A stretch of 64,000 nt of DNA from Hymenobacter sediminicola (GTDB taxonomy: Bacteria > Bacteroidota > Bacteroidia > Cytophagales > Hymenobacteraceae), in NCBI RefSeq assembly GCF_014250515.1, contig NZ_CP060202.1, forward strand, positions 1,795,001 to 1,859,000. The letters are read 5' to 3'. This document shows positions 31,206 through 35,635 of this stretch, in pieces. The notes beneath the pieces are model-generated. The model did no database searches and was not told the DNA's origin. It saw only the letters and a list, made by a program, of their open reading frames with translations. Every line of letters starts with the position of its first letter. Position 1 is the first letter of the stretch. The position numbers and the translations under genes are program-made.

Positions 31206-31226
31206 ATTCCTCGTGTTGTATCCGTG

Positions 31227-31263
31227 AAAAAGCCCGGCTTCCCCTCAGGAGTCGGGCTTTTTT
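31227..31263 (+). terminator. Rho-independent terminator (or attenuator) upstream of rsr
   Basis: AAAAAGCCCG pairs with CGGGCTTTTT around a 16-base loop and ends in a run of six T. It isolates the Ro60 operon from upstream transcription, or could act as an attenuator if transcription reads on from the small ORF. Confidence 0.8.
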
Positions 31264-31385: not shown

Positions 31386-32912
31386 ATGCGCTTCAATTTA
31401 CCCTTCCGCAAAACACAGCCCACCACAACCAACCACGAAGGGGCAGCGGCTTTCACGCTTACTCCAGAGGTGGAGCTGTATGCTGCCGTGGCAACTGCAG
31501 CACTATCAGATCAGTTTTATGAGTCGGCGGAAACGCGGCTGGTGCGCCTGCGGGAATTGGTGGCCCAGTGTGAGCCGGTATTTGTAGCCCGGCTTGCCGT
31601 GTACGCCCGTGAGCGGATGTACCTACGTTCGGTGCCGCTGGTGCTGGCCGTGGAGCTGGCCCGCCAGCACCGCGGCAACAGCCTTGTAAGCCGCTTGGTG
31701 GCTCGCATTGTGCAGCGCCCCGACGAAATAACGGAGCTGCTGGCCTTCTATGCGCAGGCCAACCAGCGGGCGGGCCGCAAAACGCTCAACCGCCTGTCCA
31801 AGCAGTTGCAAAAAGGCCTGGCCCTCAGCTTCAACCGCTTCGACGGCTACCAGCTGGCCAAGTACGACCGGGCCGGGGCCGTGCGTTTGCGCGACGCGCT
31901 GTTTCTGGTGCACCCTGCCGCCAAAAGCCTCGAGCAGCAAGCCTTGTTCGACCAGCTGGTGGCCGGTACCCTGCCTACGCCCTACACTTGGGAAACCGAG
32001 TTGTCGGCGCTGGGGCAGGTGCAATACGCTACGCCGGCAGAGCGCGCCGCGGCTTTCCGCCTGAAATGGACGGAGCTGATTGGCAGCGGCAAGCTGGGCT
32101 ACATGGCCCTGCTGCGTAACCTGCGCAACATTCTCGAAGCCGACGTGTCGGCGGAGACGATGGTGGACGTGTGCGCCGCGCTGGCCGACCGGTTTGCCGT
32201 GGCGCGCAGCAAGCAGCTGCCGTTCCGCTTCCTGGCCGCTTACCGCGAGGTAAAGGCCTTGGAAGGCGGGCACGTGTCGGCGGTGCTGGCGGCCCTGGAA
32301 GATGCCATTGCGCATAGCGCTGCCAACCTGCGTGGCTTCGGCCCCGAAACCCGCGTGGTCATTGCCTGCGACGTATCGGGCTCGATGCAGCAGCCGGTGT
32401 CTCAGCGCAGTAAAGTGCTGCTCTACGACGTGGGCCTGGTGCTGGGTATGTTGCTGCAAAGCCGCTGCCAGCACGTAACGGCCGGCATGTTCGGCAACAC
32501 GTGGAAGCGCCTGAGCCTGCCTCGTGGGCCAGTACTGCGCAACGTGGACGAGTTCTACCGCCGCGAAGGGGAGGTAGGCTACAGCACCAACGGCTACCTC
32601 GTGCTCGAGGACCTGCGCCACCGCCGCGAGGTGGTCGACAAGGTGATGATGTTCACGGACTGCCAGCTCTGGAACTCAAACTGCAACGGCAGTTCGGTGG
32701 CGAAGGAGTGGGCAGAGTACCGCCGCACGGTAGCACCGCAGGCCCGCCTGTACCTCTTCGACCTGGCCGGCCACGGCACTGCTCCCCTCGACGTACGCGC
32801 TGAGGAGGGAGTGGCCCTGATTGCCGGCTGGTCAGATAAGGTGTTTGAGGTGCTGGCCTCGCTGGAAAGCGGCGGCTCGGCCCTCACCGAAATCAATACC
32901 ATTGACTTGTAA
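31386..32912 (+). CDS. rsr: Ro60 orthologue, TROVE domain protein (Rsr)
   Basis: A 508-residue Ro60-type protein. The N-terminal two thirds is an alpha-helical TROVE ring (FYESAETRLVRLRELVAQCE, ARLAVYARERMYLRSVPL, and a later HEAT-like series), which in characterised homologues binds Y RNAs on its outer surface and single-stranded RNA ends in its hole. The C-terminal third is a von Willebrand A-like domain with a MIDAS motif DVSGS starting at Asp329. ATG 31386 (MRFNLPFRKT) is used; an upstream TTG-type start is unlikely. It is followed by an array of Y RNA-like units and then rtcB, matching the known rsr/Y RNA/rtcB association, so a role in RNA quality control or repair is inferred. Confidence 0.92.
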   Translation: MRFNLPFRKTQPTTTNHEGAAAFTLTPEVELYAAVATAALSDQFYESAETRLVRLRELVAQCEPVFVARLAVYARERMYLRSVPLVLAVELARQHRGNSLVSRLVARIVQRPDEITELLAFYAQANQRAGRKTLNRLSKQLQKGLALSFNRFDGYQLAKYDRAGAVRLRDALFLVHPAAKSLEQQALFDQLVAGTLPTPYTWETELSALGQVQYATPAERAAAFRLKWTELIGSGKLGYMALLRNLRNILEADVSAETMVDVCAALADRFAVARSKQLPFRFLAAYREVKALEGGHVSAVLAALEDAIAHSAANLRGFGPETRVVIACDVSGSMQQPVSQRSKVLLYDVGLVLGMLLQSRCQHVTAGMFGNTWKRLSLPRGPVLRNVDEFYRREGEVGYSTNGYLVLEDLRHRREVVDKVMMFTDCQLWNSNCNGSSVAKEWAEYRRTVAPQARLYLFDLAGHGTAPLDVRAEEGVALIAGWSDKVFEVLASLESGGSALTEINTIDL

Positions 32913-32922
32913 CTCCTGCCGC

Positions 32923-32967
32923 CCCGGAAGTGGCCAGAAACCATACAAAGCGGCGGCCACTTCCGGG
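32923..32967 (+). other. Stable hairpin just after rsr
   Basis: 13-bp perfect arms (CCCGGAAGTGGCC and complement) enclose a 19-base loop, beginning 10 bases after the rsr stop. There is no T-run after it, so it is not a standard terminator. It may stabilise the rsr mRNA 3' end after processing or attenuate readthrough into the array. Confidence 0.65.
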
Positions 32968-33066
32968 TCACGGTCAGATAACTTTCCTTCAGGATACAAT
33001 AATCATGTTCTCAACATCGTAAAACTCTTGGGAAGGCGGCTGACCACTACATAGCAGCCGTCGGCC

Positions 33067-33111
33067 GGAACGGCGGGGCGCCGGGGCACTGTGGCTCCGG
33101 CCAGCCGTTCC
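33067..33111 (+). ncRNA. Structured hairpin at the leading edge of the Y RNA array
   Basis: GGAACGGC / GCCGTTCC (8 bp) encloses an inner GCCGG/CCGGC helix. It directly abuts unit 1 of the array (33115). It lacks the UGCCGUA and UUGC core of the other units, so it is not counted as a Y RNA. A short CGGCTG/CAGCCG hairpin lies just upstream (33037-33060). Confidence 0.5.
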
Positions 33112-33114
33112 AAA

Positions 33115-33240
33115 CCGGCTGAGCCACCGTTCGGGTGCCGTAGGCGGGCGTTACGGGTTCGAGTTCCGCGCCTGTGCTGCGGCACCAGCAGGAAAACATA
33201 CGTCGGCCGCTCGTTGCCCCGAACCGGTGGTTTCAGCCGG
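33115..33240 (+). ncRNA. Y RNA-like unit 1
   Basis: The closing helix is very long: CCGGCTGA/TCAGCCGG, CCACC/GGTGG and GTTCGGG/CCCGAAC, about 20 bp. The core is TGCCGTAGG opposite CTCGTTGC. Inside is a T-arm-like hairpin with loop TTCGAGT (33154-33168) and a TGCTG/CAGCA hairpin where an acceptor stem would be. No D-arm is recognisable, so the tRNA mimicry is incomplete. Confidence 0.7.
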
Positions 33241-33251
33241 ATATTATAACC

Positions 33252-33387
33252 CTACCGGGTGCCGTCGGAAAGCATTCCTTCGGGTCATACGTTCGAATCG
33301 TATCAGTCGGGCTTACAGGCCTGGTTGTAGCTCAGATGGTAGAGCAGAAAGGCTTCGGCCGCCGCTTTTCACCAGTTGCCCCGGTAG
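33252..33387 (+). ncRNA. Y RNA-like unit 2 with permuted tRNA-like domain
   Basis: Closing helix CTACCGGG/CCCGGTAG; core TGCCGTCGG opposite CCAGTTGC. The inside reads as a circularly permuted tRNA: anticodon-stem 3' strand CCTTC (33277-33281), variable loop GGGTC, a perfect T-arm ATACG-TTCGAAT-CGTAT (33287-33303), a 9-bp acceptor helix (33304-33312 with 33319-33327) capped by TTACAG, TA at positions 8-9, D-arm GCTC-AGATGGTA-GAGC (33330-33345), A26, and anticodon 5' strand GAAAG. All spacings match tRNA numbering. Confidence 0.82.
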
Positions 33388-33405
33388 TGTAGTTGTTTAT
33401 TTCCA

Positions 33406-33543
33406 GCGTAGGTGCCGTAACCGGGCCATACTTCGCCATCCAATAGGTTCTGTCGCGGGTTCGACTCCCGAAGTCATGCTGCAAGGCGTGACGCCTGAAA
33501 ATGGTAGGGCAGACCAGTTAGCCGGGTGCCTGTTGCCCTACGC
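33406..33543 (+). ncRNA. Y RNA-like unit 3 with permuted tRNA-like domain
   Basis: Closing helix GCGTAGG/CCTACGC; core TGCCGTAA opposite CTGTTGC. The tRNA-like part has GGTT (33446-33449) pairing with GACC (33512-33515) as anticodon-like stem, variable loop CTGTC, T-arm CGGG-TTCGACT-CCCG (33456-33470), a 7-bp acceptor GTCATGC/GCGTGAC capped by TGCAAG, and a D-arm GCCT/GGGC (33493-33510) with a GG-containing loop. The acceptor and D-stem sequences differ from the neighbouring units, yet the pairing is preserved. Confidence 0.8.
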
Positions 33544-33557
33544 CGAAAATCAAACAG

Positions 33558-33702
33558 GAAAGCGGGTGCCGTAGCCGGGCCATACTTCGGCTGTCCAGGT
33601 CGTGGGTTCGATTCCCGCCGGTAGCTGCCTCAGGGCAGTGGTCGTAGCTCAGTCAGGTAGAGCAGGATATAAGAGGCCTGGCGTCTGTTGCCCCGCACTT
33701 TC
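33558..33702 (+). ncRNA. Y RNA-like unit 4 with permuted tRNA-like domain
   Basis: Closing helix GAAAG-CGGG/CCCG-CA-CTTTC; core TGCCGTAG opposite CTGTTGC. The tRNA-like part is the clearest of the set: anticodon-like stem TGTCC (33592-33596) with GGATA (33665-33669), variable loop AGGTC, T-arm GTGGG-TTCGATT-CCCGC (33602-33618), an 11-position acceptor helix with one mismatch (33619-33629 with 33634-33644) capped by TCAG, TA at positions 8-9, and D-arm GCTC-AGTCAGGTA-GAGC (33647-33663). Confidence 0.85.
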
Positions 33703-33705
33703 TTT

Positions 33706-33840
33706 ACCTGGCCGGTGCCGTAGCGAAGCCCTACTTCGTTTAGGTTGATGGGGTCGTGGGGTCGCGGCCCACCTGCCGCAGGGCAGTAGCTCAGTTGGTT
33801 AGAGCACATATGGGCTTCGCAGCTTATTGCCCGGTCAGGT
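33706..33840 (+). ncRNA. Y RNA-like unit 5 with permuted tRNA-like domain
   Basis: The closing helix is 10 bp, ACCTGGCCGG/CCGGTCAGGT; core TGCCGTAG opposite CTTATTGC, where a U-A pair replaces the U.G wobble of other units. Inside are a CGAAG/CTTCG hairpin, T-arm GTGGG-GTCGCGG-CCCAC (33756-33772; the loop departs from TTCGA), a 5-bp acceptor CTGCC/GGCAG capped by GCAG, TA, and D-arm GCTC-AGTTGGTTA-GAGC (33789-33805). The D-arm flank and TGATGGGGTC resemble an elongator tRNA-Met body. Confidence 0.82.
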
Positions 33841-33847
33841 TCGTTTC

Positions 33848-33952
33848 AGGATGCCGAAAAGTGGCGTAAGAAAGTCATACTTCGGGCTGCAGTGGCCGAA
33901 CAGGCCATTGTGGCAAAGCAGATTCTCTGGCTGGTTCCCTTTTCTGTGTCCT
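33848..33952 (+). ncRNA. Y RNA-like unit 6, no tRNA-like domain
   Basis: AGGATGCCGAAAAG (33848-33861) pairs with CTTTTCTGTGTCCT (33939-33952) over 14 positions with a single C.U mismatch at the core. The 5' core is GCCGAA; the usual 3' UUGC is absent. Inside is CAGTGGCC/GGCCATTG, a simple 8-bp hairpin, instead of T-, acceptor- and D-arms. It also retains the CATACTTCGG motif. Confidence 0.6.
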
Positions 33953-33960
33953 TTCTCAGC

Positions 33961-34049
33961 TCCGGATGCCGTAGGTCCGCGTTACTTCGACCTGTCTAGT
34001 CCCTTGGCCCTCTTCTGGGCCAGATGCGTGGGCCACCTGTTGCTCCGGA
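33961..34049 (+). ncRNA. Y RNA-like unit 7, no tRNA-like domain
   Basis: TCCGGA/TCCGGA closes the unit, followed inward by bulged U and GCCGTAGGT opposite ACCTGTTGC: G-C, C-G, C.U, G.U, U.G, A-U, G-C, G-C, U-A. The inside is short, with TGGCCC/GGGCCA forming a hairpin. This is the smallest unit (89 nt) and the last before rtcB, whose start is 134 bases further on. Confidence 0.7.
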
Positions 34050-34182
34050 ACCTAAGAAATAGTTGTTCATCAACCAATCTGCAGCGGCGTGGCCGTGGCA
34101 GTCTAACCCTTCTGTTCTCATGCCTGATCGAGCCAATCCAACCGGAACAATTCAATATTAGTCAATCAAAAAGACCACGTAT

Positions 34183-35586
34183 ATGGCCTCACAACTACGG
34201 GGCAACGACCTTCGCCAACTTGGATTTCCCGAAGGCCGTGCCATTGGCTTGGCGCTGGCTCAATTGCAGCGCAAGCATCTCAAAAAACTTTCACAAACCG
34301 ACCAGCTCACGCTACTCAAAGACCTGTTGGATACCCCAACGAACTACCTCACACACCTCGACTGGAGCCATACAGCTGCTGCGCTGCTGCCCGCGCCCAG
34401 CCGGCACATTGCCCTGGCCGCCCGCAAAGACTACGCCGTGTTCGGGGCCGAATACATCGAGCAAGGCGCCATCCATCAGATGGAAACGGCCATGAAACTG
34501 CCCGTCACGGTGGCTGGGGCTCTTATGCCCGATGCCCACCACGGCTACGGCCTGCCCATCGGGGGCGTGCTGGCTACTGATAATGCCGTGATTCCCTACG
34601 CCGTGGGTGTGGACATCGGGTGCCGGATGGCGTTGTCGGTGTTTGCGTTGCCGCCCAAGCACCTAGAACAGCGGGTGCAGGAGCTACGCAAGCTGCTACT
34701 GGAGCATACTCGTTTCGGCAACAAGCAGGGTTTCCAGCGCGGCCAGAAACTAGACCATGCAGTGCTGGAGCGCGACGAATTCCGGGACATCGGGTTTCTG
34801 CGCAACAAGCAGGCTACTGCTGCCGAGCAGATTGGCACCTCCGGCGGCGGCAACCACTTCGTGGAGTGGGGCGTCGTCGACATCACCGACCCTTCAAACG
34901 AGTTGGGGGTGCCGGTGGGCCAATATCTGGGGCTACTTTCGCACTCCGGCTCCCGGGGGCTAGGCGCGAGTGTGGCTAACCACTACACCAAGCTCGCCAA
35001 AGATGTGTGCCAGCTGCCTGCCGAAGCGCAGCACCTGGCTTGGCTTTCCCTGGAAAGTGAGGCCGGGCAGGAATACTGGGCGGCTATGAACTTGGCCGGT
35101 GACTACGCTTCGGCTTGCCACCACCAGATTCATCAGCGGCTGGCTAAAGCCTTGGGCGAGCGTCCGTTGGCGAAAATGGAAAACCACCACAACTTTGCCT
35201 GGAAAGAGCACCTCGCCGACGGACGCAAAGTCATTGTGCACCGTAAGGGCGCTACGCCGGCCGGCAAAGGCGTGCTGGGTATCATTCCCGGCTCGATGAC
35301 GGCTCCCGGCTTTATTGTGCGGGGGCGGGGTGAGGCGGCTTCGCTGTCGTCGGCTTCGCACGGGGCCGGCCGGGCTATGTCCCGGACTCGTGCCAAACTG
35401 GAGCTGGGCGAAGCCGAAGTCCGGCGCTACCTGCAGCAGCACCATATCGAGCTGATTGGCGGTGGCGTTGACGAAGCTCCGCAGGCCTACAAGGACATCC
35501 GGGCCGTGATGGCCAGCCAGACAGAACTGGTGGATGTGCTGGGCTCTTTCACGCCGCGTATTGTGCGCATGGAAGGTGGCTCCTGA
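34183..35586 (+). CDS. rtcB: RNA ligase RtcB (second paralogue, Ro60-linked)
   Basis: A 467-residue RtcB, closely similar to the copy at 1538-2968 but without the glycine-rich C-terminal tail. Landmarks are Cys147 in VDIGCRM, the GTSGGGNHFVEWG block, HSGSRG, the NHHNFAW block, and His393 in ASHGAGRAMSR for covalent guanylate. The enzyme seals 2',3'-cyclic or 3'-phosphate RNA ends to 5'-OH ends. It follows rsr and the Y RNA-like array in the same direction, and a terminator lies 16 bases after the stop, so it probably ends the operon. No RtcA cyclase or RtcR regulator is adjacent, unlike enterobacterial operons. Confidence 0.95.
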   Translation: MASQLRGNDLRQLGFPEGRAIGLALAQLQRKHLKKLSQTDQLTLLKDLLDTPTNYLTHLDWSHTAAALLPAPSRHIALAARKDYAVFGAEYIEQGAIHQMETAMKLPVTVAGALMPDAHHGYGLPIGGVLATDNAVIPYAVGVDIGCRMALSVFALPPKHLEQRVQELRKLLLEHTRFGNKQGFQRGQKLDHAVLERDEFRDIGFLRNKQATAAEQIGTSGGGNHFVEWGVVDITDPSNELGVPVGQYLGLLSHSGSRGLGASVANHYTKLAKDVCQLPAEAQHLAWLSLESEAGQEYWAAMNLAGDYASACHHQIHQRLAKALGERPLAKMENHHNFAWKEHLADGRKVIVHRKGATPAGKGVLGIIPGSMTAPGFIVRGRGEAASLSSASHGAGRAMSRTRAKLELGEAEVRRYLQQHHIELIGGGVDEAPQAYKDIRAVMASQTELVDVLGSFTPRIVRMEGGS

Positions 35587-35601: not shown

Positions 35602-35635
35602 AAAAAAGGCCCGAACTCTCGTTCGGGCCTTTTGC
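35602..35635. terminator. Terminator after rtcB
   Basis: The AAAAGGCCCGAAC / GTTCGGGCCTTTT hairpin has a TCTC loop and flanking A and T runs, and lies between convergent genes. Confidence 0.85.

Follow-up and report, generated by a model that had tools for sequence, protein, structure and literature searches.

In the chromosome of Hymenobacter sediminicola we identify an operon in which a gene for a Ro60-like protein (rsr), an array of seven Y RNA-like units and a gene for the RNA ligase RtcB lie in line on one strand. The operon was analyzed within a 64,000-nucleotide stretch, here called the window (assembly GCF_014250515.1, contig NZ_CP060202.1, positions 1,795,001 to 1,859,000), of the complete 4.5 Mb chromosome; coordinates below are window positions on the + strand unless stated otherwise. 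The order is rsr (31386–32912), 1.27 kb of non-coding DNA that contains the array, and rtcB (34183–35586), with an intrinsic terminator at each side. This arrangement had been read from the letters alone in an original prediction, and Pfam matches and terminator folds agree with it. The identity of the operon is well supported, and we consider it likely that this is a Ro60–Y RNA–RtcB operon that serves RNA repair or quality control and provides one Rsr ring with seven different Y RNAs, the function being assigned by analogy with the known biology of Rsr and RtcB (PMC7790460, PMC8394870).

All seven units were recovered with R1, a covariance model built from units of the genus Hymenobacter whose training set held, of the window units, only units 4 and 5. 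Unit 4 (33555–33704; 124.3 bits) carries a canonical YrlA-like permuted tRNA-like head, and unit 5 (33706–33839; 118.6 bits; folding z-score −4.2) carries a permuted tRNA-like head with an altered T-loop. The remaining units scored untrained. Unit 2 (33246–33394; 86.3 bits) has a permuted tRNA-like head with a T-arm, a closed acceptor and the D-arm GTAGCTCAGATGGTAGAGCA, unit 3 (33400–33547; 74.7 bits) has a T-arm, an acceptor hairpin and a divergent D-arm, and unit 1 (33115–33240; 44.8 bits; z −4.35) has a Ro-type stem, a T-arm and an acceptor-like hairpin with no D-arm. Unit 6 (33847–33954; 17.8 bits, E 3.7e-6 in the stretch searched; z −3.1), with GTGGCGTAAG...TACTTCG, and unit 7 (33952–34060; 47.0 bits) are minimal forms that have no tRNA-like head. 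Common to every unit are an outer stem that varies freely in sequence yet stays paired, the core GGUGCCGUAG.../...GUUGCCC and a second stem with UACUUCG at its end; by homology, the basal stem core is the predicted Ro60-binding part. The heads of units 2–5, each composed of a T-arm, an acceptor hairpin with a short closing loop and a D-arm, form a tRNA elbow in circular permutation, the Y stem occupying the position of the anticodon arm, and the D, T and acceptor arms are complete in units 2, 4 and 5 and partly present in unit 3. The count of seven and the array start at 33115 stand as first proposed, but the array reaches about 34060 rather than ending at 34049, and the units, described as separate with short linkers, share a few bases of their outer stems between neighbors 4 and 5 and between neighbors 6 and 7.

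Rfam at its curated cut-offs returned nothing in the window. A permissive Rfam search matched the YrlA family RF02553 at unit 4 (39.3 bits, E 7.8e-7, independent of R1), unit 5 (33.0 bits, E 5.4e-5) and unit 2 (28.0 bits, E 1.4e-3), all below the gathering threshold of 69 bits; none in 99 relatives reaches that threshold, and the units are therefore not filed under RF02553 proper. Neither ARAGORN nor Rfam found a tRNA gene in the array. YrlA-type models also gave weak hits in genomes of relatives that lack rsr, such as the evenly spaced identical hits in genome G092, which probably represent tandem tRNA genes and are a trap for automated Y RNA counts.

The strongest evidence for these structures comes from covariation. 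We aligned 34 units with both a T-arm and a D-arm from many Hymenobacter genomes, including window units 4 and 5, on sequence only with MAFFT, and the RNAalifold consensus comprised 33 pairs with compensatory changes in 27. Standard pairs fill 94.2% of pair cells, compared with 69.0% in shuffled alignments and 35–48% when partners are slid by 1–3 columns; none of 500 shuffles matched any observed measure, and all slid controls were lower too. The basal stem (helices 1 and 2) is 93–95% paired and compensated at 17 of 19 pairs, and the acceptor forms between the strand after the T-arm and the strand before the next D-arm, with compensation at 5 of 6 pairs. A second alignment of 24 minimal-type (class-B) units is compensated at 9 of 18 pairs. 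For the Levitt pair 15–48, position 48 in tRNA numbering was assigned to the base that precedes the T-stem and position 15 to the one directly following A14; across 174 tRNA-like units of all collected loci the combination is C48:G15 in 120, U48:A15 in 40 and crossed in 5, with Fisher P values, uncorrected for relatedness, of 1e-16 in Hymenobacter and 3e-15 in other Bacteroidota. Columns next to the Levitt pair show no comparable link. A14, the T-loop UUC and the D-loop GG are near-universal in the tRNA-like units and, together with the Levitt covariation, point to selection on the tRNA tertiary core beyond the helices. The original prediction had named decayed tRNA genes as the outcome should the helices fail to covary; the helices covary strongly, as structured Y RNAs would.

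The two flanking genes encode proteins of the expected families. Rsr (508 amino acids) combines a TROVE ring with a Ro60-type vWA domain containing the MIDAS motif DVSGS, as in Ro60/TROVE proteins: both Pfam matches lie above cut-off (TROVE PF05731, E 5.3e-29; vWA_Ro60 PF25045, E 2.7e-7), and residues 13–499 align to the solved TROVE proteins 9l5y and 9kop, including the metal-binding DVSGS. Against the NCBIfam Rsr equivalog NF041674 the protein scores 24.9 bits with more than 900 required, and by sequence it belongs to a different Rsr subfamily. Relatives with at least 74% identity in named genomes come from Hymenobacter and one Solirubrum, the nearest named being H. psychrotolerans (93%); phage and plasmid homologs all fall below 60% identity and have little bearing on this operon. 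RtcB (467 amino acids) matches PF01139 (E 1.2e-83; 282 bits, cut-off 27) and keeps the catalytic cysteine of DIGCRM and histidine of SHGAGR, both aligned to Pyrococcus RtcB 1uc2, as in RtcB RNA ligases. The earlier observation that rtcA and rtcR are missing from the locus extends to the whole genome, where RtcA (PF01137) and RtcR (PF06956) are both absent in searches with E. coli as a positive control for each, and the operon thus lacks the RtcA cyclase and RtcR activator that define an RtcR-controlled rtcBA operon. Another RtcB, which shares 66% identity with the first, is encoded at 1538–2968 on the − strand, adjoining a gene for a SelO protein adenylyltransferase.

Known Ro60 biology suggests how such an operon could work. 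Rsr/Ro60 rings bind Y RNAs by the basal stem, PNPase in Deinococcus degrades structured RNA while linked to Rsr through a Y RNA, DusA and TruB modify YrlA as they would a tRNA, and the Salmonella operon reacts to tRNA fragments (PMC7790460, PMC8394870). By analogy, the seven units would be cut from one long transcript and bound by Rsr through the shared basal stem; each would gate the Ro60 ring and tether it to a different partner, the array serving as interchangeable gates and tethers for one Rsr. Candidate partners include PNPase, as in the Deinococcus Rsr–Y RNA–PNPase complex RYPER, the tRNA-elbow enzymes TruB, Dus and RNase P, and enzymes that cut or repair tRNA. Damaged structured RNA, chiefly cut tRNA, may then be sorted between Rsr-guided decay and ligation by RtcB, which, with no end cyclase RtcA and no RtcR, would act on the 2′,3′-cyclic-phosphate ends left by anticodon nucleases. 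Given that neither RtcR nor RtcA is present, control of the operon would differ from that of the enterobacterial operon.

Several points weigh against this proposal. Unit 6 is the weakest of the seven and its R1 score is marginal. By folding energy alone, units 2, 3 and 4 are no better than shuffles, so the case rests on covariation. Linkage to rtcB is found in 28 of 60 loci outside Hymenobacter, about half, with many Bacteroidota rsr loci having no rtcB nearby, and rtcB survives without rsr in relatives, so it is not tied to the array. Different partners for the units, moreover, are something that we infer from their different heads.

The heads of units in related genomes extend the tRNA likeness to particular isotypes. 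Class-D units, which occur in relatives and not in the window, have D-arms that match the tRNA-Leu set of the window genome in all 18 cases at up to 20 of 20 bases (GTGGCGAAATTGGTAGACGC), and the D-arms of class-J units, likewise restricted to relatives, match tRNA-Ser in 6 of 6; no shuffled D-arm segment among 2400 reached the match threshold. Variable-arm hairpins with 4 bp or more are present at the permuted site in 15 of 20 class-D and class-J units compared with 2 of 81 class-I units, and in 24% of shuffles of the class-D and class-J segments, with none of 300 replicates as high as observed; a 3-bp threshold was dropped in favor of 4 bp with its own shuffles, since shuffles reached it in 62%. 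The closing pair of the Leu-type variable arm covaries from CG to UA. Units of Chitinophaga and Flavobacterium contain what by eye are Glu-like (UCGUCUAAUGG..AGGACG) and Gln-like (GGUGUAA..GGUAACACG) D-arms; tRNA-by-tRNA comparison of the variable region gave too much noise for isotypes to be called. Some Y units also stand among tRNA genes: in one Chitinophagaceae locus (L218, 7570–9070) they are interleaved, almost spacer-free, with nine tRNA genes that include a tRNA-Leu(UAG)-like gene with no long variable arm, and tRNA genes are mixed with Y units, in or beside the array, at L046, L048, L043, L050 and L080.

Two further proteins recur at Hymenobacter loci. A microbial-type PARG (PF10021, ADP-ribosylglycohydrolase-like, GGG..QEE) is encoded at 17 of 41 rsr loci, including L079, and where placed its gene sits in the gap that separates rsr from the main Y array; the window has no PARG. 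This recurrence points to a possible part for ADP-ribosylation reversal in the RNA-repair system. A PcfJ-like protein of about 435 amino acids (PF14284) is encoded inside or beside the Y array at L035, L031, L033 and other loci, and 22 of the 41 loci have a match to it. It is conceivable, and we offer it tentatively, that Bacteroidota Y RNAs are isotype-specific tRNA mimics (class-I, Leu, Ser and perhaps Glu and Gln) built on a common Ro60-binding stem, in part placed among tRNA genes and in Hymenobacter frequently partnered by PARG, with each head capturing a protein active on a single tRNA type, be it an enzyme of damage or repair, a toxin or a modifier, and bringing it to Ro60 in a modular sorting of tRNA damage.

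The main rival to Y RNAs as adaptors takes the same heads as bait. In a decoy repertoire, tRNA-like Y RNAs would draw off tRNA-cutting toxins or phage enzymes while RtcB mends the tRNAs that are cut, and the number and type of units would track local enemies, in keeping with the differences in unit number among species. The Leu-like and Ser-like D-arms, the long variable arms and the Glu-like and Gln-like D-arms of relatives would all suit such a role, yet the units of the window are class-I or divergent types, and minimal units 6 and 7 mimic no tRNA. The authors of the Salmonella study themselves proposed YrlA as a competitive inhibitor of an anticodon nuclease (PMC7790460), although for the present units, which have no anticodon loop, anticodon nucleases would need to recognize the elbow. 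A PADLOC scan gave no match, and we regard a decoy repertoire as unlikely.

We gathered rsr loci from 41 further Hymenobacter genomes and from one with a decayed rsr, and the array proved to be a constant companion of the gene. A motif-and-stem search found 2–8 units per collected locus, and R1 gave 3–9 hits in 42 of 42 Hymenobacter genomes with intact rsr; model hits are lower bounds, as the flanks of adjacent units overlap and overlapping hits were dropped, an effect seen at units 3 and 5. Of 18 Hymenobacter genomes lacking rsr, 13 had no R1 hits and five had one or two. Five rsr-less genomes retain the same rtcB (74–89% identity), four with no adjoining unit and one with a single relic. Loss of rsr removes the array while rtcB can stay, and the array thus follows Rsr and not RtcB; as expected of Y RNAs, the units stand beside rsr and are kept or lost with it. 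One Hymenobacter locus (L082, genome G040) has an internally deleted and largely missing rsr, four low-scoring Y units and an intact rtcB, and offers a natural decay series.

Comparison of units between these arrays indicates an old, ordered set and not a recent duplication. The nearest relative of a unit lies in another genome in 213 of 213 cases and sits at a similar relative position in its array (mean difference 0.09, compared with 0.33 expected), and unit types and head classes keep their order between species as unit number varies. Such relationships make it quite improbable that the array arose by amplification of interchangeable Y RNAs to lift the Y RNA level: redundancy of that kind would explain the basal stem and core motif common to all units, but no unit is closest to a neighbor in its own array, order and head classes are conserved, and the heads differ in kind. 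Conserved order, conserved classes and co-loss with rsr support the proposal of the original prediction that one Ro60 is offered a set of different Y RNAs.

Outside the genus, rsr is present in 24 of 395 sampled Bacteroidota genomes (about 6%). Nearly all non-Hymenobacter rsr loci searched have one to several adjoining units, and multi-unit arrays stand beside rsr in Chryseolinea, Chitinophaga, Flavobacterium, Mucilaginibacter, Dysgonomonas and Bacteroides. Multi-unit arrays are a Bacteroidota-wide trait, which the original prediction missed, as it did the diversification of units in relatives into different tRNA-like types. Arrays beside rsr with no rtcB downstream, the persistence of rtcB without an array after rsr loss, and an open reading frame of about 430 amino acids (PcfJ-like in L035 and its kin) in or after the array and before rtcB in several relatives make it highly improbable that the array is a cis-acting leader, a structured 5′ region through which damaged or uncharged tRNA would regulate rtcB, for all that it directly precedes rtcB, has the same orientation and is separated from it by no strong terminator. 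Decay of tandem tRNA genes, which would place a T-arm before a D-arm wherever two broken genes adjoin and probably does account for the weak YrlA-type hits in rsr-less genomes, is refuted for this array by acceptor strands that pair and covary, by the covarying Levitt pair and by a covarying Y stem that encloses each unit, with no tRNA and its anticodon arm found by ARAGORN.

One or two Y RNAs are known from Salmonella, and human Y RNAs are not tRNA-like. Like Salmonella rsr-yrlBA-rtcBA (PMC7790460), the Hymenobacter operon lines up rsr, genes for Y RNAs and rtcB on a single strand and has tRNA-like Y RNA; Salmonella has two Y RNAs, rtcA and RtcR control, whereas the window has seven Y RNAs and its genome neither protein. 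The matches to YrlA reflect a basal Y stem with permuted D, T and acceptor arms, the tRNA-like module seen in crystal structure 6CU1 (cited in PMC8394870), but the Hymenobacter sequence core is different, several heads have no D-arm or no tRNA-like part, and relatives have Leu- and Ser-type class II heads. With Deinococcus radiodurans RYPER (PMC8394870) the operon shares the Ro60 ring and the concept of Y RNA as effector tether, and differs in having no PNPase gene at the locus, many Y RNAs and a linked RtcB. Vertebrate Ro60 with human Y1, Y3, Y4 and Y5 (PMC4030889) likewise pairs one Ro60 with several Y RNAs that have different loops, whereas the Hymenobacter genes form one tandem array with an RNA ligase.

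The operon is bounded 5′ by an intrinsic terminator at 31226–31263 (a 16-pair stem followed by a T run; z −5.55) and 3′ by a symmetric terminator at 35604–35633 that is usable on either strand (z −7.1). Two structured elements beyond the seven units lie between rsr and unit 1. Directly after the rsr stop codon is a long hairpin at 32918–32975 with a 13-bp perfect stem (z −5.15), and hairpins like it were found by eye at the equivalent site in relatives. Just 5′ of unit 1, a conserved two-hairpin element at 33028–33113 (z −3.6) that is not a Y RNA has the motif GGCUGACC..GGCAGCCG..GCCGGAACGG...CCGUUCC and is found at the equivalent site before unit 1 in 19 Hymenobacter loci; its exact pattern occurs once per genome and is confined to Hymenobacter, and it has no Rfam match. 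The array transcript may have this element as its 5′ leader. Scanning for sigma-70 promoters yielded none, as expected for Bacteroidota.

Ro60, Y RNAs and RtcB in one operon and tRNA mimicry by Y RNA are already known. No description was found, in literature that did not include the main survey, of so large an ordered array with heads of several types, of Leu and Ser heads, of mixed Y RNA/tRNA arrays or of a frequent PARG partner. Units of this kind occur at Bacteroides loci, and commensals expressing Rsr ribonucleoproteins are under discussion as triggers of lupus autoimmunity (PMC8394870), which gives a medical side to knowing these Y RNAs. The finding bears on the reason for tRNA mimicry by bacterial Y RNAs and on the binding partners of the tRNA-like head: one Ro60 with up to nine structurally different, ordered and genus-conserved Y RNAs makes the function of the head testable within one strain, Leu- and Ser-type heads in relatives predict which tRNA-recognizing proteins to seek, and pairs of species with and without rsr are a ready comparison. 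An operon that has neither RtcA nor RtcR would, in addition, show RtcB working without both.

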